Assembly (NCBI RefSeq): GCF_002090055.1
Contig: NZ_BBRH01000011.1
Location: 62,001-126,000, forward strand
DNA: 64,000 nt
Source: Demequina sp. NBRC 110051
GTDB taxonomy: Bacteria > Actinomycetota > Actinomycetes > Actinomycetales > Demequinaceae
Reading direction: 5' to 3'
A program made the position numbers and the translations under genes. Positions 1 to 64,000 of this stretch are shown here, piece after piece; the stretch's first letter is position 1; every line of letters starts with the position of its first letter. A model generated the notes under the pieces. The model made no database searches. It was not told the DNA's origin and worked only from the letters and a program-made list of their open reading frames with translations.

Positions 1-300
1 GCCGTAGTTCGGGAAGGACTCCTGCTCGTGCCAGGGGAACTCCAGGCGGTGACCGCCGCCGACCATGCGCAGTCCCCAGTTGGGAATCCATCCCTCCTCG
101 CGGGGGGTGGGCAGGCCGATCAGGTCGATCTCGCGCACGGCGCGCGGGGTGAGGCCGTCGCCACAGACCTTCTCGCGCGGGAAGCGGGACTTCTCCAGAG
201 CGATGACGTCGAAACCCTCGGAAGCCAGGTAGTACGCGGCGGCGGAGCCTCCGGGCCCTGCGCCCACCACGATGACATCGGCTGTGGATTTCACGCACAT
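1..300 (-). CDS. Geranylgeranyl reductase family flavoprotein (N-terminal part, cut by window edge)
   Basis: The minus-strand frame starts with ATG at 300 and runs off the left edge, giving about 100 N-terminal residues. It opens with the FAD-binding Rossmann segment VIVVGAGPGGSAAAYYLA, then EKSRFPREKVCGDGLTPRAV, which is characteristic of geranylgeranyl-reductase-like flavoproteins. In actinobacteria these enzymes (for example MenJ) saturate the isoprenoid chain of menaquinone or other polyprenyl lipids. The surrounding menaquinone genes favour that substrate, but this is inference. The C-terminal substrate domain lies outside the window. Confidence 0.85.
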   Translation of the reverse strand, partial: MCVKSTADVIVVGAGPGGSAAAYYLASEGFDVIALEKSRFPREKVCGDGLTPRAVREIDLIGLPTPREEGWIPNWGLRMVGGGHRLEFPWHEQESFPNYG

Positions 301-479
301 AGCCTACGGGGTGTGAGGGAGTGCGTGCGCACCTAAATGCGCCGCCTCCCGCACGAAAATGGCAACTCGAGTGTTGCAAAAATCGGGACCTTGGTCCCCC
401 GGACGTCGGTCCCGGGCACCCACGGCGATACCCGACCAACGCATCGGCCGTCGTCGCGGTTCCCCCTAGGCTGGCGAGC

Positions 480-1736
480 ATGAGCATCGGCGCCACCTGG
501 GCAGGGACCCACACCTTCCACGCGAGCGGTCATGTCGAGGCCGCCAGCATCGAGCAGGTCCAGGAGCTCCTCACGGGCAGCAACGGCCCGGTGCGCGCGC
601 TCGGCACGCGCCACAGCTTCAACGACCTCGCAGACACGGCCGGCACGCTGGTCACGGTCACCGGCATCCCTGCCGACCCCGTCCTCGACGAGGAGGCGCG
701 CACCGTCACGGTCGGCGCGGGCGTGCGCTACGGCGTGCTCGCCGCCTGGCTCCACGAGCGCGGATGGGCGCTGCACAACATGGGCTCACTGCCCCACATC
801 TCCGTGGGCGGGGCCGTCGCGACGGGCACCCACGGCTCGGGGCTCACCAACGGATGTCTGGCCGATGCGGTGGCGGCCTTGCAGTTTGTGGGCGCCCGCG
901 GCGCGCTGCGCACGGTCGCGCGCGGCCAGGACGGGTTCGAGGGGCTCGTGGTCGGCCTGGGCGCCTACGGCGTGGTGGTGCGCCTCACTTTGGATATTCA
1001 ACCCGCCTACATGGTGCGCCAGGACGTCTATCGCGGGCTGCCGTGGTCGGCGCTGCTGGAGGATCTGCCAGGTGTCATGGGGGCCGGCTACTCCGTGAGC
1101 GCCTTCACCACGTGGGACGAGGACACCGTGCAGCAGGTATGGCGCAAGACCCGCATCGGGGCGGGCGAGGCGCCCGGCTCCTCCTGGTTGGGCTCGCGGC
1201 TCGAGACCCCGGAGGAATCGGGGCTCGTGGACGCCGACCCCGCGCAGCTCACGGTGCGCGGTGGCGTGGAGGGCCCGTGGCTCGAGCGACTCCCCCACTT
1301 CCGCCTGGACCACACTCCCTCGAACGGCGACGAGATCCAGACCGAGTACTTCGTGGCTCTTGAGGACGGGGCCGATGCGTTGGTCGCCGTCCGCGCCCTG
1401 GCGGCAGACATCGCACCTCACCTCTTGGTCACCGAGCTGCGCACCCTCGCCGCGGACGAGCTGTGGCTGTCGGGCGCGTACCGCCGCGACACGCTCGCGA
1501 TCCACTTCACGTGGAAGAACCGTCCCGCCGAGGTCGCCTCACTCACGCCGCGCATCGAGGACGCGCTCGCGCCCTTCGGGGCGCGCCCGCACTGGGGCAA
1601 GGTCCACACCATGACGGCCGATGCCGTGGCCGCCGTGCATCCTCAGCTCGCCCAGGCGCGGCTGCTGTTCGAGGCGCTCGACCCGACGGGGCGGTTCGCG
1701 AACGCACACCTGAGGCGCCTGGGGATCCGCGCGTAG
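480..1736 (+). CDS. FAD-linked alditol/xylitol oxidase-like protein
   Basis: This 418-aa protein matches the usual length of actinobacterial alditol oxidases (AldO, VAO flavoenzyme family), which oxidise sugar alcohols with O2 and release H2O2. The N-terminal FAD-binding domain carries the family signature VRALGTRHSFNDLADT (about residue 40) and GTHGSGLTNG. The C-terminal part has the sugar-oxidase-type end, including HWGK and DPTGRFANAHLRRLG. The reading frame is open 53 codons further upstream, but ATG 480 gives the family's normal N-terminus and follows a non-coding-looking region. It lies just before menF but is not obviously part of menaquinone synthesis. The substrate could also be another polyol or a lactone. 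Confidence 0.85.
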   Translation: MSIGATWAGTHTFHASGHVEAASIEQVQELLTGSNGPVRALGTRHSFNDLADTAGTLVTVTGIPADPVLDEEARTVTVGAGVRYGVLAAWLHERGWALHNMGSLPHISVGGAVATGTHGSGLTNGCLADAVAALQFVGARGALRTVARGQDGFEGLVVGLGAYGVVVRLTLDIQPAYMVRQDVYRGLPWSALLEDLPGVMGAGYSVSAFTTWDEDTVQQVWRKTRIGAGEAPGSSWLGSRLETPEESGLVDADPAQLTVRGGVEGPWLERLPHFRLDHTPSNGDEIQTEYFVALEDGADALVAVRALAADIAPHLLVTELRTLAADELWLSGAYRRDTLAIHFTWKNRPAEVASLTPRIEDALAPFGARPHWGKVHTMTADAVAAVHPQLAQARLLFEALDPTGRFANAHLRRLGIRA

Positions 1737-1788: not shown

Positions 1789-3051
1789 GTGAGCGTCCAA
1801 CCAGCCACCCCCGGTCCGCTGACCGTCCGCACCGTCGAGATCGACCACCCCGGCGACCTGATCTCGCGCCTGCCGGGGCCGGGCATCTCGTGGGTGAGGC
1901 GCGGCGAGGGCATGGTCGCGTGGGGCGAGGTCGCGAGGCTCGATACTGCTGGTACCTATCGGATCGACGAGGCCGATGCCTGGTGGCGCCGCGTCACCCG
2001 TCACGCGGTGGTGCGCGACGACGTTCACGCGCCCGGCACCGGGCTGATCGCGTTCGGCTCCTTCGCCTTCGCCGACTCTTCGCCCGCGGGCGGAGCGCTC
2101 ATCGTGCCGCGCTACGTGCTGGGCGTTCACGGCGACACCGCGTGGCTCACCGTCATCTCCGAGGACGGCGCCATCGACCTACCAGGGCTCGACGGGGCCA
2201 CCGCGAACGCGACCCCGGTGGCCCCGATGCCGCCCGTGACGATCGCCGACGGCGACCGCGAGGCCTGGGCGACGGCCGTCACGAGCGCCGTGGGGCGCAT
2301 CGGCGCCGGCGAACTCGACAAGGTAGTGCTGGCGCGCGCGGTTCCGGCCGCTGCCCAGACCCCCATCGACGCCAGAGCCGTGCTCGCGCGACTGGCCGAC
2401 GACTACCCCAGTTGCTGGACCTTCGCCGTCGACGGGCTCATGGGGGCCACGCCCGAGCTGCTCGCGCGGGTCGACCACGGCCTGGTCACGTCGCGCGTCC
2501 TTGCGGGCACCATCCGCCCCACCGGAGACGAAACCGCGGACCTCGCGCACGCCGCCGCACTCGCGCGCTCGTCGAAGGACCGCGAGGAGCACGAGTACGC
2601 GGTGCGCTCGGTGCGCGACGTGCTCGAGGCTCATTGCGGGTCCGTCAATGTTCCCGAGGAGCCGTCGGTGCTGCACCTGCCGAATGTGATGCACCTCGCG
2701 ACGGACGTCACGGGCGTGCTCAGCCACAACGCGTCGGCGCTCGAGCTGATTCGCGAGCTGCACCCCTCGGCCGCGGTGTGCGGCACCCCGACGCTCACGG
2801 CCGCGCGCGTGATCGACGAGCTCGAGGGGCTCGACCGCGCCCGCTACGCCGGTCCCGTGGGCTGGATCAACGCCGCGGGCGACGGCGAGTGGTGCATCGG
2901 CCTGAGGTCGGCCGAGGTGTCGGCGGCCGACCCCACCCGGCTGCGCCTGTTTGCCGGCTGCGGGATCGTCGCGGCGAGCGAACCCGACTCCGAATGGGCA
3001 GAATCGGAAGCGAAGCTCGAGCCGATGCGCCGCGCGCTCGGCGCGTCCTAG
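1789..3051 (+). CDS. menF: Isochorismate synthase MenF
   Basis: This 420-aa chorismate-binding enzyme converts chorismate to isochorismate, the first committed step to menaquinone. The C-terminal catalytic domain shows the family motifs in order: ELDKVVLARAV, ATPELLARV, RVLAGTIRPTGDE, SSKDREEHEYAV, VCGTPT, YAGPVGWINAAGDGEW and AGCGIVAASEPDSEW. The start is GTG at 1789. Salicylate- or siderophore-linked isochorismate synthases have the same fold, but menD, menC, menB, menE and menA within 10 kb fix the pathway. A methyltransferase gene starts 17 nt after its stop and may be cotranscribed. Confidence 0.95.
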   Translation: MSVQPATPGPLTVRTVEIDHPGDLISRLPGPGISWVRRGEGMVAWGEVARLDTAGTYRIDEADAWWRRVTRHAVVRDDVHAPGTGLIAFGSFAFADSSPAGGALIVPRYVLGVHGDTAWLTVISEDGAIDLPGLDGATANATPVAPMPPVTIADGDREAWATAVTSAVGRIGAGELDKVVLARAVPAAAQTPIDARAVLARLADDYPSCWTFAVDGLMGATPELLARVDHGLVTSRVLAGTIRPTGDETADLAHAAALARSSKDREEHEYAVRSVRDVLEAHCGSVNVPEEPSVLHLPNVMHLATDVTGVLSHNASALELIRELHPSAAVCGTPTLTAARVIDELEGLDRARYAGPVGWINAAGDGEWCIGLRSAEVSAADPTRLRLFAGCGIVAASEPDSEWAESEAKLEPMRRALGAS

Positions 3052-3068: not shown

Positions 3069-3713
3069 ATGACCCACACCGACCACGCCCACGGCGACCC
3101 GATGACCGACTTCTCACGCGAGTCCTGGGAGGCCAAGTACCGCGAGCGCGAGGCGCTGTGGTCGGGCCAACCCAACGCCCCGCTGGTGGACGAGGTCGAA
3201 AACCTCGCACCGGCATCGGCCCTCGAGGTGGGCTGCGGAGAGGGCGCCGACGCCGTGTGGCTCGCGACCCAGGGCTGGACCGTGACCGGCGTGGACCTCT
3301 CTGCGACCGCGCTCGCGCGGGCGCAGGTGCATGCGGAGGCCTCCGGCGTCGCGGCGCACGTGGTCTTCACCGACGAGGACGTCGAGGCGGTCATTCGCCG
3401 CGACGGTCCCTGGGAGCTGGTGGTCTCGATGTACACGCACCCCTCGCAGGGCGGGCGCTGGCTCGTGTCGACCCTGGCAGACGCGGTAGCGCCCGGTGGG
3501 CGGCTCCTCGTTGTCGGTCACCACCCCACCGATCCGCATGCCACGGAGCATCCCGACCTGGCGCGATCCGCCTTCGCGGCCGAGGACGTCGCGGACGTGC
3601 TGGACCGCTCGGCGTGGGAGGTGTCCGCGTCGATCCACGAACGTGTGACCCTCGGCGACGGCGGGCACGAGCGCTTGTGGCGCGACGCGGTGCTCGTGGC
3701 GCGGCGGCACTAG
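3069..3713 (+). CDS. Class I SAM-dependent methyltransferase
   Basis: This 214-aa protein contains a SAM-binding Rossmann fold: ALEVGCGEGADAVWLATQG (motif I) followed by VTGVDLSATAL (acidic end of beta-2), and later VAPGGRLLVVGHH. The start ATG follows AGGGAGG-type purines and comes soon after menF, suggesting one transcript. The substrate cannot be read from the sequence. The N-terminal region (WEAKYREREALWSGQPN) resembles tellurite/thiopurine-type small-molecule methyltransferases more than UbiE/MenG, so it should not be taken as the demethylmenaquinone methyltransferase despite its position. Confidence 0.8.
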   Translation: MTHTDHAHGDPMTDFSRESWEAKYREREALWSGQPNAPLVDEVENLAPASALEVGCGEGADAVWLATQGWTVTGVDLSATALARAQVHAEASGVAAHVVFTDEDVEAVIRRDGPWELVVSMYTHPSQGGRWLVSTLADAVAPGGRLLVVGHHPTDPHATEHPDLARSAFAAEDVADVLDRSAWEVSASIHERVTLGDGGHERLWRDAVLVARRH

Positions 3714-3777: not shown

Positions 3778-4740
3778 ATGAGCGACGACACCACCTGGGC
3801 CTACCGCCTCATCGCCCCCTACCGGTTCGAGCGCGTCGAGGTGCCGGTGCCGTCGGCGCCGGGCCCAGGCGAGCTGCTGGTGCGCCTGACGGCCGGGGCC
3901 GTGTGCGGCTCCGACCTCCCGTTCGCGCGCGGCGCCCTGGTGCCCGAGGGTGGACCGCGCCAGCCCGGCCGCCCCATGCACGAGGTCGTGGGCGAGGTGC
4001 TCGCGAGCGCGCACGTGGACTTTGTGCCCGGCGACCGCGTGGTGGGCTGGGCGTCGAACTGGGACGCGCTGCGCGGGGTATTCGTGACGCGCGGCGACCA
4101 GGTGGCTCGCGTGCGCATGGAGGCGTCCGATGCCCTCGCGACGGTCGCGCAGTCCGTCGCGTGCCTCTTCACCGTGTTTGACCGACTGGGTCCGTTGGCG
4201 GGCCGGTCGGTGGCGATCGTGGGCGTGGGGCCATTCGGGCTCATGACGTCGGTACTGGCGAGGCGGCTGGGCGCGGGGCGGATCGTGGGCATCGACCCGC
4301 TCGACCGCGCCGCGGATGCCGACGGGCTGGGCTTCGATGCCCTGGTGCGCGCGAACTCCCGGGTGTGGGCCGCTGGTCTCGCGGAGGCGGACAGGCCCGA
4401 CATCGTGATCGAGATGGTCGGACACCAGCCCTCGACGGTGGCCGATGCGATGAACGCCGTCGCTCCCGGCGGCACCGTGGTCGCCTTCGGCGTGCCCGAC
4501 GACGACTGGTATGCCCTCCCCCTGCGCTCCTTCTTCCGCCGCCACGGCACCCTCGTGACGGGCGTCACGCGCCACCACCGCGCGATGCTCGAGCGGGCGC
4601 AGGACTTCCTCATCGCCGAGCCGTGGTTTGCCGAGCGGATGGTGACGGACGTGGTGCCGATCACCGAGGTCGAGCGCGCGTTCGCGGCGGCATGCGCGCC
4701 ACGGCCAGGCCAGCGCAAGGTGGTGCTGGAGGTCGACTAA
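3778..4740 (+). CDS. Zinc-type medium-chain dehydrogenase (alcohol dehydrogenase family)
   Basis: This 320-aa protein belongs to the medium-chain dehydrogenase/reductase superfamily. The catalytic zinc site is visible as GAVCGSDLPFARG (Cys) and PGRPMHEVVGEV (His-Glu), and the cofactor-binding Rossmann motif is VAIVGVGPFGLM. The four-cysteine structural-zinc lobe of classical alcohol dehydrogenases is absent, which is common in sugar-alcohol and threonine dehydrogenase-like branches. Its stop overlaps the stop region of menD on the opposite strand by 4 nt. The substrate is unknown; the nearby alditol oxidase hints at polyol metabolism, but this is only suggestive. Confidence 0.85.
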   Translation: MSDDTTWAYRLIAPYRFERVEVPVPSAPGPGELLVRLTAGAVCGSDLPFARGALVPEGGPRQPGRPMHEVVGEVLASAHVDFVPGDRVVGWASNWDALRGVFVTRGDQVARVRMEASDALATVAQSVACLFTVFDRLGPLAGRSVAIVGVGPFGLMTSVLARRLGAGRIVGIDPLDRAADADGLGFDALVRANSRVWAAGLAEADRPDIVIEMVGHQPSTVADAMNAVAPGGTVVAFGVPDDDWYALPLRSFFRRHGTLVTGVTRHHRAMLERAQDFLIAEPWFAERMVTDVVPITEVERAFAAACAPRPGQRKVVLEVD

Positions 4741-6404
4741 CCTCGCACGGCCGCCTCGATGAGCTCCATGCCGGTCACCTCAGCGGCAAGCGCGCGGGCG
4801 AGCGCGTCGGCGTTGGTGACGCGCGTGTACGTCACCCCGTAGGCGGCCGCGAGCGGCGCGAGGTCCACCCCGTGCGGCGTGGTGAACACGCGCTCCACGT
4901 TCGCCGCGGGCGCCGCCGCGTGCTCGAGCCCGCCAAAGATGGTCCCGCCGCCATCGTTGATGACGACGATGCGCACGCGCGGTCGGGTCTCGCGCGGGCC
5001 GATGAGCAGCCCGCCCACATCATGCAGAAACGTCACGTCGCCCATGAGTGCGCTGACCGGTCGGCGCGACGCGAGGGCCATCCCCACCGTGGTCGAGACG
5101 GTGCCGTCGATGCCCGCGAGCCCGCGGTTCGCCACGAGCACGGGGGCGTCACCCACCGCCCATGCGGGGGCCACCTGATCCACCGCGCGGATGGACCCGG
5201 AGGAGCCGAGGAGCGCGGGCTCGCCGGGGGTGAGGGAGGCCAGGAAGGCCTGTGCCACGGCCCGACGGTCCCAGGCGCTCGCCTGAGGTTCGAGGGCGCC
5301 GGCCGCATCGCGCCAGCGCGCGAGCCACGCCGAGTCCCCCAGGGCGAGGGTGCCGTCCGAGCGCTGCGTCCACGAGGCGGGCACCGCGCGCAGCACGCGC
5401 TCGGCGTGCCGGGGCGCCTCGCGCCAGCGCGCGCCGTGTCCGGCGACCATGAGGGCGGGGGCATCGGCGATCAGCCGCTGCACCTGGCGCGTGAGAGTGG
5501 GCCTACCCACCACCACGACCTGGTGGACCTGGTTCGCCAAGGTGCGTCCGGCATCGGCCGCCAGAAGGTCCAGGTACTGCGGGATGCACGCGTCGCCCTC
5601 GCGTGCGCCAGAGGTCGGCTCGGCGAGCAGCGGCCAGCCGTGGGCCTCGGCGATGAACCGCGCCGCGGGGCCAGCGCCGTCGCCCGCGATGACCAGGCCG
5701 CGCTCGACCTCGGGCACCGGCGCCGGCTCGTCGACGATGGGGATGCCATGCGAGCCCGTGGTGGGGTGAGCGTCGACCTGTGGCGGATCGTCCCATACGC
5801 CGTTGTCGGCGCTCAGCGGGTCGCGGAACTCCAGGTTGAGGTGCACGGGGCCGGGGGTGCCCGTCATGTCGTCCCGGTTCGGGTCGCCCAGCGCGACGCC
5901 CACGGCTTGGTTGGCGAGGCGGGCGGCGTGGCCGGGAGCGTCCCCCTCCGCGGGTGCGGCGACGTCGGCGCTCCAGCGCACGAAGGTGCCGAAGATGCCC
6001 ACCTGATCGGTGGTCTGATTGGCGCCCACGCCCCGGAGCTCGCCAGGTCGGTCCGCTGTGAGCAGTAGCAGGGGCAGGCCGCTGTGGTGGGCCTCCATCA
6101 CGGCGGGCAAGAGATTGCCCACGGCGGTGCCAGAGGTGGTGACGATGGCGACGGCGCGGGCCTGTCCTGTCGCAGCCGCTCCCCTCGCAAGCCCCAGCCC
6201 CAGGAACGCCGCGGAGCGCTCGTCGATGCGCACGTGCAAGTCCACGCCGGGCGCGCCGAGCGGCGGATTATCGGCGCCGGCCTCCGCGAGCGCGTGCGCG
6301 AGTGGACCCGAGCGCGAGCCGGGGCACAACACGAACTCGCGCACGCCGCGCTGCGCGAGCGACGAGACCAGCTCGCGGGCGAACGCCGCCGACGGGTAGC
6401 TCAC
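4737..6404 (-). CDS. menD: SEPHCHC synthase MenD
   Basis: This 555-aa thiamine-diphosphate enzyme adds succinic semialdehyde (from 2-oxoglutarate) to isochorismate in menaquinone synthesis. The N-terminal ThDP pyrimidine-binding domain has FVLCPGSRSGPLAHAL and the conserved glutamate in IDERSAAFLGLGLARG. The C-terminal pyrophosphate-binding domain has LMGDVTFLHDVGGLL and VINDGGGTIF, the metal-binding GD...N segment. The start ATG overlaps the stop of menC (ATGA), so the two are translationally coupled. It converges with the dehydrogenase gene with a 4-nt overlap. Confidence 0.97.
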   Translation of the reverse strand: MSYPSAAFARELVSSLAQRGVREFVLCPGSRSGPLAHALAEAGADNPPLGAPGVDLHVRIDERSAAFLGLGLARGAAATGQARAVAIVTTSGTAVGNLLPAVMEAHHSGLPLLLLTADRPGELRGVGANQTTDQVGIFGTFVRWSADVAAPAEGDAPGHAARLANQAVGVALGDPNRDDMTGTPGPVHLNLEFRDPLSADNGVWDDPPQVDAHPTTGSHGIPIVDEPAPVPEVERGLVIAGDGAGPAARFIAEAHGWPLLAEPTSGAREGDACIPQYLDLLAADAGRTLANQVHQVVVVGRPTLTRQVQRLIADAPALMVAGHGARWREAPRHAERVLRAVPASWTQRSDGTLALGDSAWLARWRDAAGALEPQASAWDRRAVAQAFLASLTPGEPALLGSSGSIRAVDQVAPAWAVGDAPVLVANRGLAGIDGTVSTTVGMALASRRPVSALMGDVTFLHDVGGLLIGPRETRPRVRIVVINDGGGTIFGGLEHAAAPAANVERVFTTPHGVDLAPLAAAYGVTYTRVTNADALARALAAEVTGMELIEAAVRG

Positions 6405-7291
6405 GCGGTCACCTCAAGTCTCGTCAGGCCGATGCGGCCGTGGGAGGGCAGCCAGGTGTGGGCCACGGTGTCTGTCGCGAGGAGCGCACCGGTGCCGAGG
6501 CCACAGGCGAGCGGCTCGCGGGGCAGCGCCAGCGCGAGGGCGACGCCCGCCGCGAGGCCCACCGAGGACTCCATCGCGGAGGACACGGTGATGGGCAGGT
6601 CGCCCACGCTGTCAGCGATCTCGAGCGCGCGGCGCACCCCGCCCAGCGGGTGGGCCTTGAGGATGATGACGTCGGCCGCGTGGGCCTTGAGGACGGCATC
6701 GGCGGAGCCGGGGATGCGCACGGACTCGTCCGCGGCGAGCGGCACGTCCGCGCGGCGGCGGAGGATCGCGAGGTCCTCGACGGACTCGACGGGCTGCTCG
6801 GCGTACTGGAGGCCGTGTGCCCCTCCTGCGCGGGCCGCGCGGTCCAGGAGCGGCAGGCAGCGGGCGGCCTCGTCGAGGTCCCAGCCGCCGTTGACGTCTA
6901 CGCGGATGGCGCCGGCGGGGCCCAGGGCGTCGGCGACGGCCTCGACGCGGGCGATGTCGGCCGCAAGGTCGGAGCCCCCGCCCACCTTGACCTTGGCGGT
7001 AGTGCAGCCGTTGCGGGTCGCGAAGTCGCGGGCCCGGTCCGGGTCGACGAGCGGGACGATGGCGTTGACGGCGACGGTGTCGCGCTGCGGGCTGGGCCAG
7101 TCCCCGCGCGCGGCCTCCATCGCGCCGCGCCACCACCGCGAGGCACGCTCGGCGTCGTAGTCGGGAAACGGGCTGTACTCGCCCCAGTGGTCCACGCCGT
7201 CCTCGTCACGCATGCGGATGAGGACGCCGGAGCGGCGGGTCGTGGCCCGAAAACGCGTCGACAACTCGACGGTGAAGGGCCGGAATTCCAT
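6401..7291 (-). CDS. menC: o-Succinylbenzoate synthase MenC
   Basis: This 296-aa enolase-superfamily protein dehydrates SHCHC to o-succinylbenzoate. The catalytic Lys pair is in TTAKVKVGGG, metal ligands appear in IRVDVNGGW, YAEQPVE and PLAADESVR, and the second catalytic Lys in VIILKAHPLGG. It is upstream of and overlaps menD, giving a menC-menD operon. A 104-bp inverted-repeat element occupies the divergent region between menC and menB, where their promoters must lie. Confidence 0.96.
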   Translation of the reverse strand: MEFRPFTVELSTRFRATTRRSGVLIRMRDEDGVDHWGEYSPFPDYDAERASRWWRGAMEAARGDWPSPQRDTVAVNAIVPLVDPDRARDFATRNGCTTAKVKVGGGSDLAADIARVEAVADALGPAGAIRVDVNGGWDLDEAARCLPLLDRAARAGGAHGLQYAEQPVESVEDLAILRRRADVPLAADESVRIPGSADAVLKAHAADVIILKAHPLGGVRRALEIADSVGDLPITVSSAMESSVGLAAGVALALALPREPLACGLGTGALLATDTVAHTWLPSHGRIGLTRLEVTA

Positions 7292-7446: not shown

Positions 7447-8379
7447 ATGAGCGCCATTCCCGCCACCGTGTCCGACACCTTCGACGCCCAGCAGTGGCGC
7501 GCGATCGAGGGCTTCCCCGACGGCGACATCACGTACCACCGCTGGGTTGACCGGTCCGAGGGCGAGGAGCGGGACCTCCCCGCGGTGCGCATCGCCTTCA
7601 ACCGCCCCGAGGTGCGCAACGCCTTTAGGCCTCAGACCGTCGACGAGCTCTACCGCGCACTCGATCACGCCCGCATGACCGACGACGTCGCCGCCGTGAT
7701 CATCACGGGCAATGGGCCGGCACCCAAGGACGGCGTGTGGGCGTTCTGCTCGGGCGGCGACCAGCGCATCCGTGGGCGCGACGGCTACCTCTACGAGGGC
7801 ACGGCGGCCGATGCCCCCGCTCACGGCGGCCGCCTGCACATCCTCGAGGTGCAACGCCTCATGCGGACCATGCCGAAGGTGACGATTGCCGCGGTCAACG
7901 GCTGGGCGGCAGGTGGCGGGCACAGCCTCCACGTGGTCGCGGACTTGTCGATCGCCTCCCTCGAGCACGCGCGCTTCAAGCAGACCGATGCGAACGTGGG
8001 CTCGTTCGACGCGGGCTACGGCTCGGCGCTGCTCGCGCGCCAGGTGGGCGACAAGCGGGCCCGGGAGATTTTCTTCCTCGCACGGGAGTACTCGGCGGCC
8101 GATGCCGAGCGCTGGGGCGCGGTCAACGAGGCCGTCACGCACTCCGCACTAGAAGCGACCGCGCTCGAGTACGCGAAGACCATCGCGGCCAAGTCGCCGC
8201 AGGCCATTCGCATGCTGAAGTACGCCTTCAACCTCGCCGACGACGGCCTCGCGGGCCAGCAGGTGTTCGCCGGCGAGGCGACCCGCATGGCCTACATGAC
8301 GGACGAGGCTCAGGAGGGGCGCGACGCGTTCCTCGAGCGGCGCGAGCCCGACTGGACCAAGTTCCCGTACGCGTTCTGA
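7447..8379 (+). CDS. menB: 1,4-Dihydroxy-2-naphthoyl-CoA synthase MenB
   Basis: This 310-aa crotonase-fold enzyme cyclises o-succinylbenzoyl-CoA to DHNA-CoA. Diagnostic segments are FNRPEVRNAF near the N-terminus, FCSGGDQRIRGRDGY (the MenB disordered/active-site loop), VNGWAAGGGHSL (oxyanion hole), TDANVGSFDAGYG and the C-terminal WTKFPYAF typical of MenB. ATG 7447 was chosen because the longer upstream frame crosses the inverted-repeat element and has no family similarity. The gene is monocistronic, transcribed divergently from menC, and followed by a hairpin at 8398. Confidence 0.97.
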   Translation: MSAIPATVSDTFDAQQWRAIEGFPDGDITYHRWVDRSEGEERDLPAVRIAFNRPEVRNAFRPQTVDELYRALDHARMTDDVAAVIITGNGPAPKDGVWAFCSGGDQRIRGRDGYLYEGTAADAPAHGGRLHILEVQRLMRTMPKVTIAAVNGWAAGGGHSLHVVADLSIASLEHARFKQTDANVGSFDAGYGSALLARQVGDKRAREIFFLAREYSAADAERWGAVNEAVTHSALEATALEYAKTIAAKSPQAIRMLKYAFNLADDGLAGQQVFAGEATRMAYMTDEAQEGRDAFLERREPDWTKFPYAF

Positions 8380-9609: not shown

Positions 9610-10629
9610 ATGAACTACACGCGGCTCGCCGACGGTCCCGAGGCAGCCGTTGCGGCTGCTCTCGCGGGCCACATCGACGGCATCGCGGCACGTACCTCCG
9701 GCTCGACCGGCGAGCCTCGCGAGGTGCTCGTGAGCGCCGCGGCGATGCGCGCCTCCAGCGAGGCGACCCTCGACCGTCTGGGCGGCCCGGGGCACTGGCT
9801 GCTGGCGGTCCCCGCCGACCGCATCGCGGGAGCCATGGTCCTGGCGCGTGCTCGGATGGCCGATGCGACGGTCACCCCGGTCATGCCCGGCACCTTCACG
9901 GCGGCGTCCTTCGCGGACGCCACGGCTGCGATGCCGCCGGGCCGGCGCTACGTGTCGCTGGTGCCGACCCAGCTGCGCCGGGTCCTTGCCGAGCGGGCTG
10001 GCCGCGAGGCTCTGGAAACCTTCGACGCCGTGCTCGTCGGCGGCGCACCTCCCGGCATGGACCTGCCCCCAAACGCCGTGGAGACCTACGGCATGACCGA
10101 GACCAGCGGGGGCTGCGTCTACGACGGCACGCCGCTGGACGGCGCCGAGGTACGCATCGCCACCGACGGCCGCATCGAGATCGCGGGCCCCATGCTCGCC
10201 GACGGCTATCGCGACGGCGACGACTCGGCGTTCGTCACGGACGCAGGACGAAGATGGTTCCGCACCTCCGACCTCGGCTCCTGGGATGGCCACACCCTCA
10301 CCGTGCACGGGCGCGCCGACCACGTCATCATCACCGGCGGCCACAACGTCCATCCCGCATCGGTCGAACGGGCGATGGCCGATGCCGGGGTCGCGGAGGC
10401 GATCGTCGTCGGCCTCCCCGACGCCGAGTGGGGCGAGCGCATGGTGGCCGTGGTGACCGAGGATGCCCCCGGGCTCGCCGACCTGCGCTCCACGCTTGCC
10501 CTGCCCCGTCACGCCCTCCCGCGTGCCCTGGTGCGCGTGGTGCAGGTACCGCGCACCGAGGCTGGCAAAATCGACCGCAGCGCCGCACGGGCACTCGCCG
10601 CGGCACAGGACCTTGAGGAGACCTCATGA
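9610..10629 (+). CDS. menE: o-Succinylbenzoate-CoA ligase MenE (short actinobacterial form)
   Basis: This 339-aa ANL-family adenylating enzyme activates o-succinylbenzoate with ATP and CoA. It starts almost at the P-loop (RTSGSTGEPREVLVS, about residue 28) and continues with LVGGAPPG, VETYGMTETSGGCVYDG (A5 motif), WFRTSDLGSWDG, VHGRADHVIITGGHNVHPASVE and the catalytic lysine in RTEAGKIDRS. It lacks the long N-terminal subdomain of the ~450-aa enzymes, as in other actinobacterial MenE. Its stop overlaps the menA start (ATGA). Confidence 0.93.
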   Translation: MNYTRLADGPEAAVAAALAGHIDGIAARTSGSTGEPREVLVSAAAMRASSEATLDRLGGPGHWLLAVPADRIAGAMVLARARMADATVTPVMPGTFTAASFADATAAMPPGRRYVSLVPTQLRRVLAERAGREALETFDAVLVGGAPPGMDLPPNAVETYGMTETSGGCVYDGTPLDGAEVRIATDGRIEIAGPMLADGYRDGDDSAFVTDAGRRWFRTSDLGSWDGHTLTVHGRADHVIITGGHNVHPASVERAMADAGVAEAIVVGLPDAEWGERMVAVVTEDAPGLADLRSTLALPRHALPRALVRVVQVPRTEAGKIDRSAARALAAAQDLEETS

Positions 10630-11495
10630 CGACGACCCAGGACTGGGTAGCTGGCGCTCGCCCCCGTACGCTCTGGACGGCCATCTCCCCCGTCGCGGTC
10701 GGCACGGGTGCCGCGGTGCTGCTCGACGAGTTCCGCCTCATCCCCGCGCTGCTCGCCCTCGCCGTCGGGCTCGCGATGCAGATCGCCGTGAACTACGCCA
10801 ACGACTACTCGGACGGCGTGCGCGGCACGGACATCGACCGCGTGGGTCCCGACCGCCTGGTCGCGACCGGGCGCGCGACGCCCACGGCGGTCCGCAACGC
10901 CGCGTTCCTGAGTTTTGGCGTCGCAGCCATTGCCGGGCTGGCGCTCGTGGTGCTCACCGAAACCTGGTGGCTCCTCGCCGTCGGCGCCGTCGCCATCGTC
11001 GCCGCGTGGGGCTATACCGGCACCTCTCGCCCCTACGGGTACTCGGGCTGGGGCGAGGCCATGGCATTCCTGTTCTTCGGACCCGTCGCTACCCTCGGCA
11101 CGCTGTACACGCAGGCCGGCACCATCACGTGGTGGGCCGTGGTCGCGTCGATCGGTGTGGGGCTCTACTCAGTAGCGCTCATGCTCGTGAACAACATCCG
11201 CGACATCGCGACCGACACGATCGCGGGCAAGCGCACGCTCCCGGTGCGCATCGGCGAGGCCCGCGCGCGCCGCCTGTTCATGTCCGTGGTGATGCTGCCC
11301 GTGCTGTGCTCGGTCATCGTGGCCTTCGTCCACCCGTGGGTGCTGATCTCGACGGTCGTCGCGCTGCCCAGCCTGCTGGTCGCCTTCGGCATGCGCGTGG
11401 GTGCCGAGAAGATCGGGATGCCGCTCATCTTCAAGGCCCTGTCGGGCATCGGCCTCGCCTACGGGCTGCTGTTCGCGTTGGGGCTGATCCTGTGA
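10626..11495 (+). CDS. menA: 1,4-Dihydroxy-2-naphthoate polyprenyltransferase MenA
   Basis: This 289-aa integral-membrane UbiA-family prenyltransferase attaches the polyprenyl chain to DHNA. The first Asp-rich Mg-PPi motif is NYANDYSDGVRGTD and the second is NNIRDIATDTIAGKRTL. About eight hydrophobic segments are visible. The start overlaps menE by 4 nt and the stop overlaps the next small gene by 4 nt, so menE-menA-small ORF form a coupled operon. Confidence 0.96.
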   Translation: MTTTQDWVAGARPRTLWTAISPVAVGTGAAVLLDEFRLIPALLALAVGLAMQIAVNYANDYSDGVRGTDIDRVGPDRLVATGRATPTAVRNAAFLSFGVAAIAGLALVVLTETWWLLAVGAVAIVAAWGYTGTSRPYGYSGWGEAMAFLFFGPVATLGTLYTQAGTITWWAVVASIGVGLYSVALMLVNNIRDIATDTIAGKRTLPVRIGEARARRLFMSVVMLPVLCSVIVAFVHPWVLISTVVALPSLLVAFGMRVGAEKIGMPLIFKALSGIGLAYGLLFALGLIL

Positions 11496-19399: not shown

Positions 19400-19405
19400 G
19401 GAACG

Positions 19406-46562: not shown

Positions 46563-46582
46563 CGGCCGCCTCCACGGCTAGC

Positions 46583-53263: not shown

Positions 53264-54901
53264 ATGAGCCTGGCCGCGCGCCGCAGCCTCGGCTGGTGGC
53301 TGCTGGCCGCCGTGCCGCTCGCGTTCCTCGGCCTGTTCTTCCTGTGGCCGCTCGCGTCGGTCCTGGTACACGGTCTCTTCGACGGCGGCTTTGACGCCGC
53401 GGGCACCTGGGCGGTGGTCACGTCTTCCCGCACGGCCGATGCCGTGGTCACCACCCTCGGGCTCGCCCTCGCGGGCACTGTGGGTTCGCTCGCGCTGGGC
53501 GTCCCCGGTGCGTACGTGCTCTACCGGTTGCGCTGGCGCGGGCAGCGGACGGTGCGCTCGCTCGTGGCGGTGCCGTTCGTCCTGCCGACGGTGGTCGTCG
53601 CCGCCGCGTTCTCCGCGCTGTTGGGACGCTCGGGGCCGCTGGGGTTCCTTGAGCTCGACCAGTCCGTCGTCGCGATCGTCGCGGCGCTGGTGTTCTACAA
53701 CGTCTCCGTCGTGGTGCGCGTGGTGGGCGGCGCGTGGGCGGGGCTGGACCCGTCGCTCGGGGCAGCAGCCGCGACGCTGGGCGCCGACCGCCGGCGAGTG
53801 TTCGCCCACGTGACGGTGCCGGCGCTCATGCCAGCCCTCGCATCGGCCGCCTCCGTGGTCTTCTTGTTCTGCGCGACCGCCTTCGGGGTGGTGTTGGTGC
53901 TGGGTGGCACGCGGGTGCGCACGCTGGAGACCGAGATCTACCTGCAGGTCAACCAGTTCCTCGACCTGCGCGCGGCCGCGGTGCTGTCGGTCCTCCAGAT
54001 GGTGTTCGTCGCGCTCGCACTGTGGCTCTCCGCGGCGGCGAGGCGCCGGCGCGAACGCGTGGCCGGCGGGCGCGCCCTCGACGGCACACGCCCCTTCCGG
54101 CCGGCCGATGCATGGGTCGCCCTTCCCACCCTTGTGACCCTGGGTCTTTTGCTGGCCCTCCCGTTGTACTCGCTGGTGGAGAGGTCGCTGAGGACCATCG
54201 ACGGCCATGGGGTCGACCACTATGTGGCGCTGTTCTCCGAGCCTGGTCGCACCGTGCTGCCGGTGTCGGTGGCGCAGGCCGCCGTGAACTCCCTGGTGAC
54301 GGCGGCGATCGCCGCGGCCGTCGCATGCGTGGTGGGGCAGGTGGTGGCGACGTTGCTGACGCGGCGCACGCGACGCTCCGGCGCGCTCGATGCCGTGGTG
54401 ATGCTGCCGCTGGGGGTCTCGGCGGTCGTGGTGGGACTCGGCATGCTGCTGACCCTCAACCGCCCGGTGCTCGGGGTCGACCTGCGCGGCTCGTGGTGGC
54501 TGGTGCCCATGGCACAGGCGGTGGTGGCGCTACCGCTGGTGGTGCGCACGCTGGTGCCCGCGGCACACGCGATCGACCCGCGGCTGCGGGCGGCGGCGGC
54601 GACGCTCGGGGCGTCCCCGTGGCGGGTGTGGGCGGCGGTCGACTGGCCGCTGCTGCGCCGGGCCTTCGGGCTGGCCGTGGGTTTCGCGTTCGCGATCGCG
54701 TTGGGTGAGTTCGGCGCCACGACGTTCGTGGCGCGACCCGACCGACCCACGCTGCCCACCGCCATCTATCGGCTCCTGGGGAGGCCCGGCATCGAGAACA
54801 TCGGCATGGCCTTCGCCGCGGCGGTGGTGCTGGCCCTCATGACGGCGGCCATCATGATGGTGTCCGAGCGCATGCGCACGCAGGTGGGAGCTGATCTATG
54901 A
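53264..54901 (+). CDS. thiP: Thiamine ABC transporter permease, two fused permease units
   Basis: This 545-aa membrane protein carries two binding-protein-dependent permease domains. The EAA-type loops are in GLDPSLGAAAATLGADRRRVFAHVTVP (first half) and DPRLRAAAATLGASPWRVWAAVDWP (second half). About twelve helices are visible, the usual ThiP/FbpB duplicated form. ATG 53264 lies 21 nt after thiB, and the stop overlaps thiQ by 4 nt (ATGA). Confidence 0.93.
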   Translation: MSLAARRSLGWWLLAAVPLAFLGLFFLWPLASVLVHGLFDGGFDAAGTWAVVTSSRTADAVVTTLGLALAGTVGSLALGVPGAYVLYRLRWRGQRTVRSLVAVPFVLPTVVVAAAFSALLGRSGPLGFLELDQSVVAIVAALVFYNVSVVVRVVGGAWAGLDPSLGAAAATLGADRRRVFAHVTVPALMPALASAASVVFLFCATAFGVVLVLGGTRVRTLETEIYLQVNQFLDLRAAAVLSVLQMVFVALALWLSAAARRRRERVAGGRALDGTRPFRPADAWVALPTLVTLGLLLALPLYSLVERSLRTIDGHGVDHYVALFSEPGRTVLPVSVAQAAVNSLVTAAIAAAVACVVGQVVATLLTRRTRRSGALDAVVMLPLGVSAVVVGLGMLLTLNRPVLGVDLRGSWWLVPMAQAVVALPLVVRTLVPAAHAIDPRLRAAAATLGASPWRVWAAVDWPLLRRAFGLAVGFAFAIALGEFGATTFVARPDRPTLPTAIYRLLGRPGIENIGMAFAAAVVLALMTAAIMMVSERMRTQVGADL

Positions 54902-55640: not shown

Positions 55641-56114
55641 TCAGCAGGCGCAGGCGATCGCCTCACCCGTCGACGACAGCGGCGCCGTCAGCGGGTCCGG
55701 CGCCCGCGTCGCGTCGATCGTGACCTCGCGGCCCTCCGCGTCAACCGTCACGGCGTCCACCGGCAACCCCTCGCGCGCCCAGTACTCGAAGCCGCCGATC
55801 ATCTTCTTCACCTCATAACCAAGCTCGGAGATGATCAATCCGGCGCGGGTCGCGCCGTTGCAGCCGGGGCCCCAGCAGTACACGACGAACCGCGTTCCCG
55901 TCGGGTACGCGGGAATGCGCGAAGCCATGAGGGGCTTGGGCATATGGACGGCCCCGCGGGCGTGCCCCTGGCGCCAGGCGCGCTCGTCGCGGCTGTCAAT
56001 GAGCACAAAATCGCCGGAGGCGACCGCGGGCGCCACGTCGGACGGGTCCGTCTCGAACGCGAGCTTCGCGCGAAAGTGTGCGGCGGCGGCGGAGGTGTCG
56101 GGGGCATCGGCCAT
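55641..56114 (-). CDS. Rhodanese-domain protein
   Basis: This 157-aa single rhodanese domain has FVLIDSRDERAWRQGHARGAVHMP and the catalytic-loop cysteine in VVYCWGPGCNGATRAG, followed by YEVKKMIGGFEYW. The loop is longer than the classical CRxGxR and carries two Cys. A tail with CAC at the C-terminus follows. Substrate is unknown; sulfur transfer or cyanide/thiosulfate metabolism are possible. Confidence 0.87.
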   Translation of the reverse strand: MADAPDTSAAAAHFRAKLAFETDPSDVAPAVASGDFVLIDSRDERAWRQGHARGAVHMPKPLMASRIPAYPTGTRFVVYCWGPGCNGATRAGLIISELGYEVKKMIGGFEYWAREGLPVDAVTVDAEGREVTIDATRAPDPLTAPLSSTGEAIACAC

Positions 56115-56196
56115 GGCGCCAACCTAGCCCCGCACCCTGGTGCCTGTCAGCGAGAAACCGGCGCCGGCATCGGCCGCAGCGAAGCAAACCGCAAGA

Positions 56197-58218: not shown

Positions 58219-58250
58219 GCGGGCGACTGGCCGATGCGCCGGTCGCCCGC
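58219..58250 (+). promoter_or_regulatory. Intercistronic hairpin between dnaK and grpE
   Basis: GCGGGCGAC and GTCGCCCGC form a perfect 9-bp stem with a 14-nt loop that contains the 9-mer GGCCGATGC. It may attenuate transcription or stabilise dnaK mRNA so that DnaK is made in excess over GrpE and DnaJ. Confidence 0.55.
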
Positions 58251-58869: not shown

Positions 58870-59835
58870 GTGTCCAGTCAGGACTGGTTCACCAAAGACT
58901 TCTACGCGACGCTCGGCGTCTCCAAGGACGCCTCGCCCGAGGACGTCAAGAAGGCGTACCGGCGGCTCGCCCGCGACCTGCACCCCGACCGCAACCCCGG
59001 CGACGCCAGCGCCGAGCGGCGGTTCAAGGACGTGGGCGAGGCGTACGGCGTGCTGTCCGACAAGGAGCAGCGCCAGCAGTACGACGCGATCCGCGCGATG
59101 GGTGGTGGCGGCCCGCGCTTCCAAGCGGGAGCCGGCGGCGCCGGCAACGGCGGCTTCGAGGACGTGTTCTCCTCGATGTTCGGTGGCGGCGGCGCGAACC
59201 GCGCGGGCGGTCAGCAGTACCGCGCGCAGGGATTCGAGGACGTGCTGTCGAACATGTTCGGCGGCGGTGGCTTCCAGCGCGGACCTCAGAAGGGCTCCGA
59301 CGTGGCCGCGGCCACCGAGGTGTCGTTCCGCCAGGCGGCATTCGGCGACACCATCACGCTGCGCACCTCGACCGGCACGGTCAAGACCCGCCTGCCCGCC
59401 GGCGTCACCGACGGCCAAAAGATCCGCATCGCGGGTAAGGGCCGCCAAGGAACGAACGGCGGTCCGTCGGGCGACCTCATCCTCACCGTGCGTGTGGGCA
59501 AGCACCCGGTGTTCACGGCCGACGGCAAGAACCTGCGCATGAACCTTCCCGTCAGCTTCGACGAGGCCGCGCTGGGCGCGACCGTCGAGGTCCCCACGCT
59601 CGACGGCGACCGCGTCAAGGTCAAGGTCGCGTCCGGCACTAACTCCGGAACCACCCTGCGCGTCAAGGGTCGGGGCATTGCGACCAAGCAGGGCACCGGC
59701 GACCTGCTGGTCACGGTCCAGGTGTCGGTGCCGAACAAGCTCAGCCGCAAGGCCAAGGAGGCGCTGCAGGCCTTTGCACTGGCCGATGCCTCATACGACC
59801 CGCGCGCCAGCCTCTACGACGACGCGGCCAAGTAG
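58870..59835 (+). CDS. dnaJ: DnaJ-family co-chaperone without zinc finger
   Basis: This 321-aa protein has the J domain with HPD ([31 protein letters not shown]), a Gly/Phe-rich linker containing two near-identical copies ([14 protein letters not shown] and [14 protein letters not shown]), and the two beta-barrel client domains ([36 protein letters not shown]). The CxxCxGxG zinc-finger domain of type I DnaJ is missing, so it is CbpA/type II-like although in the dnaK operon. GTG 58870 follows AGGAAGGAG. Confidence 0.93.
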
Positions 59836-60289: not shown

Positions 60290-60345
60290 ACGGCCGATGC
60301 CGTGGCCGGGTTTCGCTCGCGTGGACGGGTTGCGTGGGGAAAAGC

Positions 60346-61166: not shown

Positions 61167-61339
61167 GCCCCATGAGAGGGGTGCGACGCGGCTTCATGAC
61201 GCGGATTCGGAAGAAATTTCTAGGCGATCCTCAAGGCCGGGCCGATGCAGGGTGTGACGGGCACAACTTTGCGCTTGCTTTTGACCACTGGTCACAGGGA
61301 CGATAGGGGCCACTATCGCCATGAACGGGACTGAGGGCC

Positions 61340-64000
61340 ATGACAACTGAGGCGATCGCGCTATGGACGGAAACGTCCAGCGATCCGGAGCTGATCGCCG
61401 GCGTGCGCGCCGGTGACCCGGCCGCCTTCGGTGTGCTCTACGAGCGTCACGTCGACGCCGCCCGCAAGGTCGCGTTTCAGTACACGAACTCGGTGTCCGA
61501 CATCGACGACGTGGTCTCGGAGTCCTTCTCCCGGGTCCTGCGCGCGCTCCAGCGCGGTGACGGCCCCGACCTCGCCTTCCGCGCGTACCTCTTCACCATT
61601 GTGCGGCGCACCGGCATGGACGTCATCGAGAAGGGCAACCGCACCCGCCCGCGCGACGACATGGAACCGTACGAGGCGGCGCTGGGCTACGAGGCGTCCT
61701 CCGATGAACCCGCGCTTCAGGGCTTCGAGCAGGGCATGGTAGCCGACGCCTACCGGTCGCTTCCCGAACGCTGGCAAGCGGTGCTGTGGTACACCGAGAT
61801 CGAGAAGAAGAGCCCCAAGGACATCGCGCCTCTGCTGGGGCTGAGCGCCAACGGCGTGGCCGCGCTCGCCTATCGCGCACGCGAGGCGCTGCGCCAGGCC
61901 TACCTCCAGCAGCACCTGTCCTCGTCGGTCGAGGTCAGCTGCATGGAGGCCAATGCGCAACTCGGATCGTATGTACGCGGGGGCCTGTCCAAGCGCGAGC
62001 ACACCCGCATCGACGGGCATGTGAAGGGTTGCGAGCGCTGCACCGCGCTGGTGCTGGAGCTCGAGGACGTCAACCGCGGACTGCGCGGCATCATCGCTCC
62101 CCTGTTCATGGGTGCGCTGGGGGTGGGAGCGCTCGAGGGCGGCCTGCCCATCGGCGGCGCCCTGGGCCCCGCGGGCGCGACCGGGGCCGCGGGTGCCGGT
62201 GGTGCCGGCAGCGCCGCGGCAGGTGCCGGCGCGACGACCGCGAGCGGGGTAGCCGGGGCCGCGGGGACCGGAATCCTCGGGGGCCTCGGGACGCTCGGTG
62301 CCGTGGGGTTGCTGACCAAGGTGGCCGTGCCCGCCGCGGCGGCGCTCGGCGCCGTCGCGCTCACCGTCGCAGGCGTCAATTTCATCGGGAACCTGTTCCC
62401 TGGCGAGGACCCAGCCGATGCTCAGGGCACCGGCGGCGTCGCGTCGCCGCGGGACAGCGAGCCCGGGGCGGGTTCGACGGATGCCGATTCCGGTGTCGAC
62501 TCAGGTGTCGACGACGACGCCGATCAGCCTGCGGCCGGCACCCCCGGCTCCGTGGACGAGTCCGACGACGCCACCGGCCCGATCTACTCGGCCCAGACTG
62601 GCAGCTCGCCTTCCTCCGTCGCCCCGGTGACGGCACCCGGCGCGGGCACCGCACCGGCCGGCAGCGGCACGGCTCAGACCACTCCCGCGATCGTGGTCGA
62701 CCCTGGCGCGACGAGCGATGACGGATCGACCTCCGGCGGTTCCGCTGGGGCATCGGGCACGGACGGAACGGGCACCGCGGACGACACGTCCGGGGGAACT
62801 ACCTCGGGCGACACGGGAAACAACACCGGCTCTGGTAGCGGAACAGATACTGGCTCCGACAGCGGGACCGATAGCGGAACCGACTCAGGCATCGGCACCG
62901 GCGGCGACAGCGAGACGCCAGGAGACGGCACCGGTGAGGAACCCGGCACGGATACCGGGACGGATACGGGTACGGATTCCGGCTCGGGCACCGGGACCGA
63001 TAGCGGAACCGACTCGGGCACCGACACCGACACCGGAACGTCGGGCACCAGCAAGCTGAGCATCGCCCAGTCCCCCACGTCGTACCTTGCTCTCACGCGC
63101 TCGGACCCCGAGGTGACACTCGCCCTCAGCAACGACGGCGACGGCGCCGCGGCGGACGTCACGGCGTCTATTGCGCTTCCGGCGGGGCTCACGTTTGCGG
63201 CGCCCGGCGGCACCGCGGGCTTCGCAGCCCCACAGGAGGACGTGTGGAGCCAGCAGATGGCTCGCGTCACCCAGGAGCCGTTCACACTCGACGGCTGGGA
63301 GTGCACCCTTAGCGCGAACGCCCGCGTCCTGACCTGCGCCATCGACTCCGTCGGCGCGGGCAGCGATGCCAGCTTCGACATGGACGTCACGCTCCTGACG
63401 GACCGCCTCGCGGACGACGCGACGACGACCTTTACGGTCGACGCCGGCGCACAGCATGTTTCTTACTCCGTCGCCACCGGCATCACGGACCTGCCGACCG
63501 GCTACGGCGCCACGGGCGGGGCGGGAGCCACGCAGGTGGGCGCGACCCTCATGGGGTGCTCCGAAATCTTTGACCCGCACCGATACTGCAAGAACGTCAT
63601 GGACCAGACGGCGAACGGCGATCAACTCAAGTACAACAACAACGCCTACGCGATGGTGCCGCTGAACGACGCGGGCGGCGAGAACAACTCGGGCACCACC
63701 ACTGTCGACCTGCCCGCGGGCGCGACGGTGACAAGCGCCACGCTCGAGTGGTCGGCGAACCGCCCGGTCCTGACCCACTGGTCAGGTGACACGGGATCCG
63801 CTCGCCTTCGCGTTCCCGGCGGCCACTACGTGGAGGTCACCGCGGACACGACCCGCTCGTTCACTCGCTCACTGTGGCACTACTACCTGTCACGGGCGGA
63901 CGTCACGGACCTCGTCACCGGCGAGGGCACGTACGGCGTCGCCGACATCGCACTCGCTCAGTCCCCTGGTACGAATCTCTACGGCGGGTTCACGCTGACC
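61340..64000 (+). CDS. ECF sigma factor fused to anti-sigma zinc finger, membrane helix and long extracellular region (incomplete)
   Basis: ATG 61340 opens a frame with no stop for 887 codons to the window edge. Residues ~15-95 are sigma region 2 (AGVRAGDPAAFGVLYERHVDAA, DIDDVVSESFSRVLRAL) and ~140-195 region 4 (RWQAVLWYTEIEKKSPKDIA, GLSANGVAALAYRAREALRQ). Residues ~200-245 form a zf-HC2-like anti-sigma element (REHTRIDGHVKGCERC). An Ala/Gly stretch and membrane helix follow (~325-355, VPAAAALGAVALTVAGVNFIG), then ~215 residues of Asp/Ser/Thr/Gly repeats (TDSGTDSGTD type). From ~570 come DUF11-like and surface beta domains (SRADVTDLVTGEGTYGVADI). A sigma factor tethered in cis to its own sensor is implied. 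Confidence 0.85.
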   Translation, partial: MTTEAIALWTETSSDPELIAGVRAGDPAAFGVLYERHVDAARKVAFQYTNSVSDIDDVVSESFSRVLRALQRGDGPDLAFRAYLFTIVRRTGMDVIEKGNRTRPRDDMEPYEAALGYEASSDEPALQGFEQGMVADAYRSLPERWQAVLWYTEIEKKSPKDIAPLLGLSANGVAALAYRAREALRQAYLQQHLSSSVEVSCMEANAQLGSYVRGGLSKREHTRIDGHVKGCERCTALVLELEDVNRGLRGIIAPLFMGALGVGALEGGLPIGGALGPAGATGAAGAGGAGSAAAGAGATTASGVAGAAGTGILGGLGTLGAVGLLTKVAVPAAAALGAVALTVAGVNFIGNLFPGEDPADAQGTGGVASPRDSEPGAGSTDADSGVDSGVDDDADQPAAGTPGSVDESDDATGPIYSAQTGSSPSSVAPVTAPGAGTAPAGSGTAQTTPAIVVDPGATSDDGSTSGGSAGASGTDGTGTADDTSGGTTSGDTGNNTGSGSGTDTGSDSGTDSGTDSGIGTGGDSETPGDGTGEEPGTDTGTDTGTDSGSGTGTDSGTDSGTDTDTGTSGTSKLSIAQSPTSYLALTRSDPEVTLALSNDGDGAAADVTASIALPAGLTFAAPGGTAGFAAPQEDVWSQQMARVTQEPFTLDGWECTLSANARVLTCAIDSVGAGSDASFDMDVTLLTDRLADDATTTFTVDAGAQHVSYSVATGITDLPTGYGATGGAGATQVGATLMGCSEIFDPHRYCKNVMDQTANGDQLKYNNNAYAMVPLNDAGGENNSGTTTVDLPAGATVTSATLEWSANRPVLTHWSGDTGSARLRVPGGHYVEVTADTTRSFTRSLWHYYLSRADVTDLVTGEGTYGVADIALAQSPGTNLYGGFTLT

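Follow-up and report, generated by a model that had tools for sequence, protein, structure and literature searches.

Uptake sequences, the tags by which bacteria prefer self-DNA in natural transformation, are known, by the account in excerpts of PMC12616744, from only two families, both of them proteobacterial. According to excerpts of PMC3630211, the DNA uptake sequences (DUS) of Neisseriaceae are 10 to 13 bases long and number 943 to 5918 copies per genome, their dialects follow the tree, and five genomes are without an obvious DUS. The uptake signal sequences (USS) of Pasteurellaceae, whose density in H. influenzae is about one per kb (PMC7811141, in part), combine a core of nine bases with downstream positions that are weaker and spaced, and come in two spelling types (PMC12616744). 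Here we examine a 9-base word, GGCCGATGC, that is extremely frequent in a 64,000-base stretch of the draft genome of Demequina sp. NBRC 110051 (contig NZ_BBRH01000011.1, positions 62,001 to 126,000; "the window"), and we suggest, on the strength of sequence comparisons, that it is probably the core of a DUS serving self-DNA preference in Demequina natural transformation.

The features of this motif fit a DUS better than they fit the other known kinds of word that we considered. Like the Neisseriaceae DUS, as described in the available parts of PMC3630211 and PMC12616744, it combines high copy number, dialects that mostly follow the tree, genomes without a clear dialect, and pili with Com proteins; it differs from DUS in sequence, in phylum, and in its footprint of about 25 positions, and our search turned up no ComP-type receptor. 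It shares the architecture of the USS, from which it differs in sequence and phylum and in that USS tails are AT-rich, whereas its own downstream positions are mixed (TGGtcGgcTt). The highly iterated palindrome HIP1 and its alternates (HIPs) in cyanobacteria are likewise very frequent short words that are replaced in some genomes, but HIPs are palindromes linked to methylases (excerpts of PMC4390886), while the Demequina motif and its other spellings are not palindromic. Within Actinomycetota, Micrococcus luteus has com genes, as Demequina does, and takes up DNA; its transformation is Flp-pilus dependent according to one title, and abstract openings mention no uptake sequence. Among the matches listed, mainly non-subscription literature, titles and abstract openings named no uptake sequence in Actinobacteria, and the ten papers listed, of 265 containing one of three 9- or 10-mers, were unrelated by title.

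Counting both strands, we found 42 exact copies of GGCCGATGC in the window (Table 1), 41 of them outside an integrative element and one inside it, which makes the word the commonest 9-mer of the window (the highest count among words not overlapping it is 24). A 14-mer extension, GGCCGATGCCGTGG, is present 10 times. Among 34 named loci recovered with the window's MenD, all nine at or above 60% identity (60-94%) carry the name Demequina, and the host was accordingly treated as a species of that genus. The whole draft genome (2,754,137 bases in 25 contigs) has 849 + 838 = 1687 copies; the reversed word, by comparison, occurs 87 times. In a sample of 341,500 bases, made up of the window minus the element and 15 stretches of 20 kb taken mostly at contig starts, we observed 216 copies where an order-3 Markov model predicts 19.2. 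Outside the element, the density in 17 stretches lay between 0.20 and 1.19 per kb, with no evident focus. An earlier, sequence-only reading of the window had listed 39 copies, about ten of them extending to the 14-mer. All of the positions listed do carry the word (1617 should be 1616), three copies had been overlooked, the estimate of ten is exact, and one copy does lie in a riboswitch span. The genome-wide and Markov counts that it proposed lie far above background, and its observation is, overall, partly confirmed.

As that reading also held, the signal is in the DNA and is left unexplained by codons. Genes were called with our own simple method based on GC by codon position, which leaves gene edges rough. 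Synonymous-codon shuffling left 23.2 +/- 3.6 of the 160 genic copies (50 shuffles, maximum 33), and GGCCGACGC, in which the usual Asp codon gives the same peptide, is depleted in genes (13 versus 52.7 in the shuffles). Asp is encoded by GAC in 5587 of 6465 cases in the sampled genes, yet Ala-Asp-Ala starting with GCC uses GAT 116 times and GAC 51 times, and GCC-GAT-GCC outnumbers GCC-GAC-GCC by 77 to 33. In the same sampled bases the motif is denser between genes (1.22 per kb) than within them (0.54 per kb). The cores of five other genomes (G015, G034, G009, G017, and G003) also passed the shuffle test, and four of the five, the exception being G003, showed the intergenic excess.

Weaker positions flank the 216 copies on both sides, partly as a codon-phase effect. 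In the 54 intergenic copies whose flanks are complete, the consensus widens to about tt...aacGGCCGATGCcgTGGtcGgcTt, the extended motif thus being strongest where coding imposes no constraint, and the footprint spans about 25 positions, beyond which the intergenic flanks diverge. Words one mismatch away from the core are mostly near expectation, apart from four, and a few small ones: GGCCGACGC falls below it (14 versus 36), and CGCCGATGC (61 versus 28), AGCCGATGC (20 versus 8), and GGCCGATGT (20 versus 10) lie above it. No strand bias by stretch was detected in five genomes (heterogeneity p = 0.79, 0.81, 0.47, 0.78, and 0.95), and both strands carry the motif in all nine stretches along the 2.76-Mb contig of G034. 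Four convergent pairs of copies were folded, and two of them form very stable hairpins (z -11.0 and -10.2); pairs of DUS or USS are said to act as terminators (PMC12616744, in part).

The copies persist at orthologous positions in near kin. We compared 20 copies in 16.4 kb of the window with four relatives (loci L001, L002, L003, and L016), and the exact 9-mer was kept at 10 of 14 alignable sites in L001, 10 of 18 in L002, and 9 of 19 in L003, against 0.30, 0.21, and 0.175, respectively, for any 9-mer. The more distant L016 bears ten GGCCGATGC copies of its own at other positions and retains none of the window's. The sequence-only reading had suggested such a comparison, which bears out conservation in the three near relatives and not in L016; copies therefore outlast ordinary sequence in close relatives and turn over farther away.

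The integrative element, with a GC content of 62.7%, holds one copy where the genome rate predicts 13.7 (Poisson P = 1.6e-5; binomial P = 3e-7 against its flanks). Its own composition predicts 0.60 copies, close to the one seen, so the element is at background rather than purged. The word had been called absent from the element; it is scarce there, at background, and present once. This scarcity in acquired DNA is the observation of one element.

Across the genus, the motif is spelled in dialects. De novo word counts in 15 species (20 to 340 kb sampled each), together with logos, gave GGCCGATGCC(GTGG) in G000 and also in G015, there with C or G at +10; GGCCGATGCG in G034, G014, and G033; GGACGATGCG in G017, G022, and G004; GCCCGACGCTG(TGG) in G009; and a weak GGCCGACGC spelling in G003. 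The same counts gave no clear word in the samples of G001, G012, and G027. The spellings, GGCC, GGAC, and GCCC among them, are relatives of one motif. In whole genomes, GGACGATGC is bimodal, with 929-1864 copies in 16 of 44 Demequina genomes and 49-275 in the other 28; GGCCGATGC reaches 584-2018 copies in 17 further genomes; and GCCCGACGCT reaches 908 in G009 and 254 in G012, with at most 52 in the other 42. Thus 34 of the 44 have one of three cores in 584-2018 copies, and both the GGACGATGC and GGCCGATGC spellings are found in G022 and G026. For 20 of the 44 genomes we built a tree from six concatenated proteins, on which spelling and clade mostly agree. In one clade, G stands at base +10 of 94/105, 40/45, 10/11, and 4/4 sampled copies; its sister clade has a mixture there, in which C or T is the most frequent. 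G035 and G021 are exceptions, having the GGCC spelling on the GGAC side.

Genes for a pilus and for DNA import are present nearly throughout the genus: PilT in 44 of 44 genomes, ComEC in 43, ComEA over cut-off in 43, and DprA in 44 at E <= 1e-3 (38 over cut-off). The pilus cluster of the window's genome comprises pilB, pilT, pilC, three prepilin-motif genes, pilD, and pilM, plus a gene called pilX-like from position only. Uptake is therefore possible in nearly all of these genomes, which is not in itself a demonstration that the motif takes part in it. The comEC gene of G009 (G009:C1:2039413-2040200) is split over two frames, as it is in G026 and G060, which may be a real break or a sequencing error; G009 has a strong dialect despite the split.

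Copy number, balanced strands, the extended motif, dialects that mostly follow the tree, and the pilus and com genes together lend support to the reading of GGCCGATGC as the core of a DUS, to which we assign a probability of about 0.66. Com, Pil, and DprA proteins have roles known from other bacteria, and on that model the motif would be bound by a protein at the cell surface, probably one of the type IV pilus; PilT-driven retraction would follow, ComEA and ComEC would bring one strand inside, and DprA and RecA would recombine it. Tagged fragments would be taken up and recombined more often, so that copies would accumulate and persist in shared DNA, a drive that may maintain the motif, and newly arrived elements would come without them. 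A shift of receptor preference in a lineage would draw the tag after it, yielding dialects. The sequence-only reading, whose interpretation is partly supported overall, had named DUS alongside Chi/KOPS-type sites (KOPS, FtsK-orienting polar sequences) and HIP1; the uptake reading gained support, and the motif has neither the polarity of the second nor the palindromy of the third.

Several observations weigh against the uptake reading. Ten of the 44 genomes (G001, G003, G005, G007, G012, G013, G018, G027, G032, and G060) show no clear dialect, with none of the three words above 472 copies; GGCCGATGC was left uncounted in G060, which is 50% complete, and G005 is 85% complete. Com and pilus genes are equally present in genomes without a clear motif, so that the machinery does not predict the motif, and the co-occurrence with competence genes that the sequence-only reading had proposed to check holds genus-wide without distinguishing the two groups. 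Genomes with GGACGATGC do not form a single group on the tree, with G004 apart from G017 and G022, and the near relatives G004 (1550 GGACGATGC copies) and G001 (245, motif-poor) disagree; the latter contrast may record a recent loss or gain of the tag. In L016, 0 of 11 alignable copies are kept (0.07 for any 9-mer), and of the GGACGATGC sites in L004, L005, and L008, 37 in all, 3 (one per locus) align to a GGCCGATGC of the window. In G003, the density is 0.27 per kb between genes and 0.37 within them. Convergent pairs no more than 60 bases apart are rare (five among 216 sites), and the remaining two folded pairs are weaker (z -4.1) or not unusual (z -1.4).

The word is also found outside the genus. 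In a table of 396 genomes of the order, 34 of them Demequina, read by eye, G349 (family f11, genus g11) has 1681 GGCCGATGC versus 177 reversed and is the sole non-Demequina genome at such a level, and some others exceed the reversed control severalfold (G070, 227 versus 22; G276, 332 versus 49), which likewise tells against the uptake reading. The next-highest non-Demequina count is 564, in a 9.4-Mb genome with 307 reversed copies; other g11 members have 181 to 391, G192, from another genus of the window's family, has 127 versus 27, and many genomes lie near the reversed control. In 60 kb sampled from G349, GCCGATGCCG is enriched as well (16 versus 1.7). The high GGCCGATGC count of G349 (loci L259-L261) may reflect a tag that came into use there independently or was transferred. 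In L015 (Agrococcus sp. Marseille-P2731), a candidate word, GGATGCGGTG, occurs 9 times in 21.7 kb versus 0.2 expected; it was not abundant in 159 genomes of the order, which may not include Agrococcus (top count read, 106 in a 9.4-Mb genome with 70 reversed).

The search for a receptor adds to the points against the uptake reading, since no candidate held up. The pilins of the cluster differ in type, and these differences do not track dialect. Outside the cluster, eight of nine genomes searched have a further prepilin gene, and a profile built from those eight hit 30 of 44 genomes strongly (E <= 1.2e-42) at sites on a separate contig or distant from the cluster; G029 was too fragmented for a sure call. 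In nine genomes, distance between these orphan pilins was associated with dialect (partial r 0.46, p 0.019, uncorrected for the nine proteins tested), with p 0.095 to 0.94 for the eight other proteins. In all 13 genomes the association was not significant (partial r 0.22, p 0.074, with the +10 base of G008 and G035 taken from 5 and 3 copies), and none was seen with the nine-base core (partial r -0.10, p 0.68, n = 13). Acidic residues outnumber basic ones in the nine orphan pilins counted, spellings are mixed on the orphan-pilin tree, and six motif-rich genomes (G011, G019, G020, G036, G061, and G062) have no off-cluster match better than E 1.9e-10. We therefore dropped the orphan pilin as receptor on account of the lost association, the acidity, the weak or missing matches, and the mixed tree; the odds of the uptake reading are unmoved by this failure, because the receptor was never part of its support. 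The orphan prepilin gene has an acetyltransferase-like gene, so named from our reading of its sequence, beside it in seven of eight genomes read; in L221 the two genes lie at 1295-1783 and 1897-2328.

Of the alternatives, the one that survives best is a HIP-like word that arises and is maintained through DNA methylation in combination with biased repair or mutation, with no role in uptake. HIP1 and alternate HIPs, which are other words in some cyanobacterial genomes, are linked to matching methylases (PMC4390886, in part), and the genic depletion of GGCCGACGC, one transition away from the motif, is in keeping with such a process. Against it, there is no palindrome common to the GGCC, GGAC, and GCCC spellings. 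Usual methylase sites are shorter than the footprint of about 25 positions. Simple deamination of GGCCGACGC as the source can be rejected, as the source sites are too few: all GGCCGACGC expected in genes (53) and the expected motif (23) come to about 76, below the 160 seen. We regard methylation as an improbable origin of the motif.

A chromosome maintenance signal, namely a Chi site, an FtsK-orienting site, or a binding site for a nucleoid protein, would likewise be dense, dispersed, and at background level in a foreign element such as the one examined, and its spelling could vary between lineages as observed here. The balanced strands in five genomes, compared by stretch with no origin or terminus as reference, do not fit a Chi-type or FtsK-orienting site and so speak against the polar forms, as does the presence of the motif on both strands in every G034 stretch; the uneven density without any evident focus counts against such a signal too. 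We consider it rather less probable than methylation. Relics of a dispersed mobile repeat, such as a repetitive extragenic palindrome (REP) or a miniature inverted-repeat transposable element (MITE), could account for the intergenic copies that have a common longer tail and pair as hairpins, but they are very unlikely carriers of the motif, given that intergenic flanks differ beyond about 25 positions, that shared ends are largely absent, and that 160 of 216 copies are genic, with 155 of these distributed over three frames. A codon or codon-pair preference around Ala-Asp-Ala, the frame in which 91 of 160 genic copies lie on the sense strand, is a negligible prospect in view of the shuffles, the 66 of 160 copies that are antisense, the doubled intergenic density, and the rarity of GCC-GAC-GCC. 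Codon bias, a strand-polar signal, and a mobile repeat are thus rejected by the shuffle, strand, and flank tests, respectively.

We lean slightly toward the view that self-recognizing uptake arose independently in the high-GC Gram-positive genus Demequina, that its at least four spellings act as partial barriers to exchange between species, and that, as G349 and the Agrococcus word suggest, it may have arisen more than once in the order. If GGCCGATGC is indeed the core of a DUS, it would be a third, unrelated case of an uptake sequence and a Gram-positive one, making the tag independent of passage through an outer membrane, and the origin and drift of uptake specificity could be tested across some forty species with several dialects. 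The motif could also be a competence marker readable from genomes of Actinomycetota, and it hints at a route to genetic tractability in Demequina.

Table 1. Copies of GGCCGATGC and genes of the integrative element in the window
Feature	Position	Strand	Remarks
motif copy	441..449	-	intergenic
motif copy	860..868	+	in gene
motif copy	1370..1378	+	in gene
motif copy	1616..1624	+	in gene; full 14-mer GGCCGATGCCGTGG, identical in L002 and L003
motif copy	1971..1979	+	in gene
motif copy	2894..2902	-	in gene; not in sequence-only list
motif copy	3213..3221	-	in gene
motif copy	4440..4448	+	in gene
motif copy	5551..5559	-	in menD
motif copy	6427..6435	+	in gene
motif copy	7806..7814	+	in gene
motif copy	8097..8105	+	in gene
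motif copy	9858..9866	+	in menE-like gene
motif copy	10377..10385	+	in menE-like gene
motif copy	11446..11454	-	in gene
motif copy	12119..12127	+	intergenic
motif copy	14328..14336	+	in gene; full 14-mer
motif copy	14434..14442	-	in gene
motif copy	14679..14687	-	in gene; 9-mer kept in L001, L002, L003
motif copy	15735..15743	-	in gene; full 14-mer
motif copy	16458..16466	+	in gene; not in sequence-only list
motif copy	18281..18289	-	in predicted gene
motif copy	18976..18984	+	in gene; full 14-mer
integrative element	19459..41834		limits and ends from sequence-only reading; motif at background
phage-type integrase	19646-21139		within element
large 2119-residue protein, weak AAA match	22342-28701		within element
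motif copy	32759..32767	-	sole copy within element; not in sequence-only list
C5 cytosine DNA methylase	40339-41517		within element
motif copy	42910..42918	-	in gene
motif copy	44564..44572	+	intergenic; full 14-mer
motif copy	45695..45703	-	in gene
motif copy	46559..46567	-	counted intergenic; overlaps edge of predicted gene
motif copy	46649..46657	+	in gene
motif copy	47801..47809	+	in gene; full 14-mer
motif copy	51285..51293	+	intergenic; full 14-mer
motif copy	51990..51998	-	within thiamine pyrophosphate (TPP) riboswitch span 51951-52090
motif copy	52250..52258	-	in gene; full 14-mer
motif copy	53434..53442	+	in ABC permease gene; full 14-mer
motif copy	53840..53848	-	in ABC permease gene
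motif copy	54103..54111	+	in ABC permease gene
motif copy	56104..56112	-	in predicted gene
motif copy	56167..56175	-	counted intergenic; near dnaK start
motif copy	58229..58237	+	intergenic, after dnaK
motif copy	59781..59789	+	in gene
motif copy	60292..60300	+	intergenic; full 14-mer
motif copy	61240..61248	+	intergenic

Five of the eight proteins of the element that were scanned have no Pfam match, and the integrase, the 2119-residue protein, and the C5 methylase suggest that the element is possibly a defense island. A repeat of a different kind is present in G018 (L071 and L141-L145), where 20 copies with shared flanks are built around GCGAGCGGGGGTGATCCC in 120 kb.

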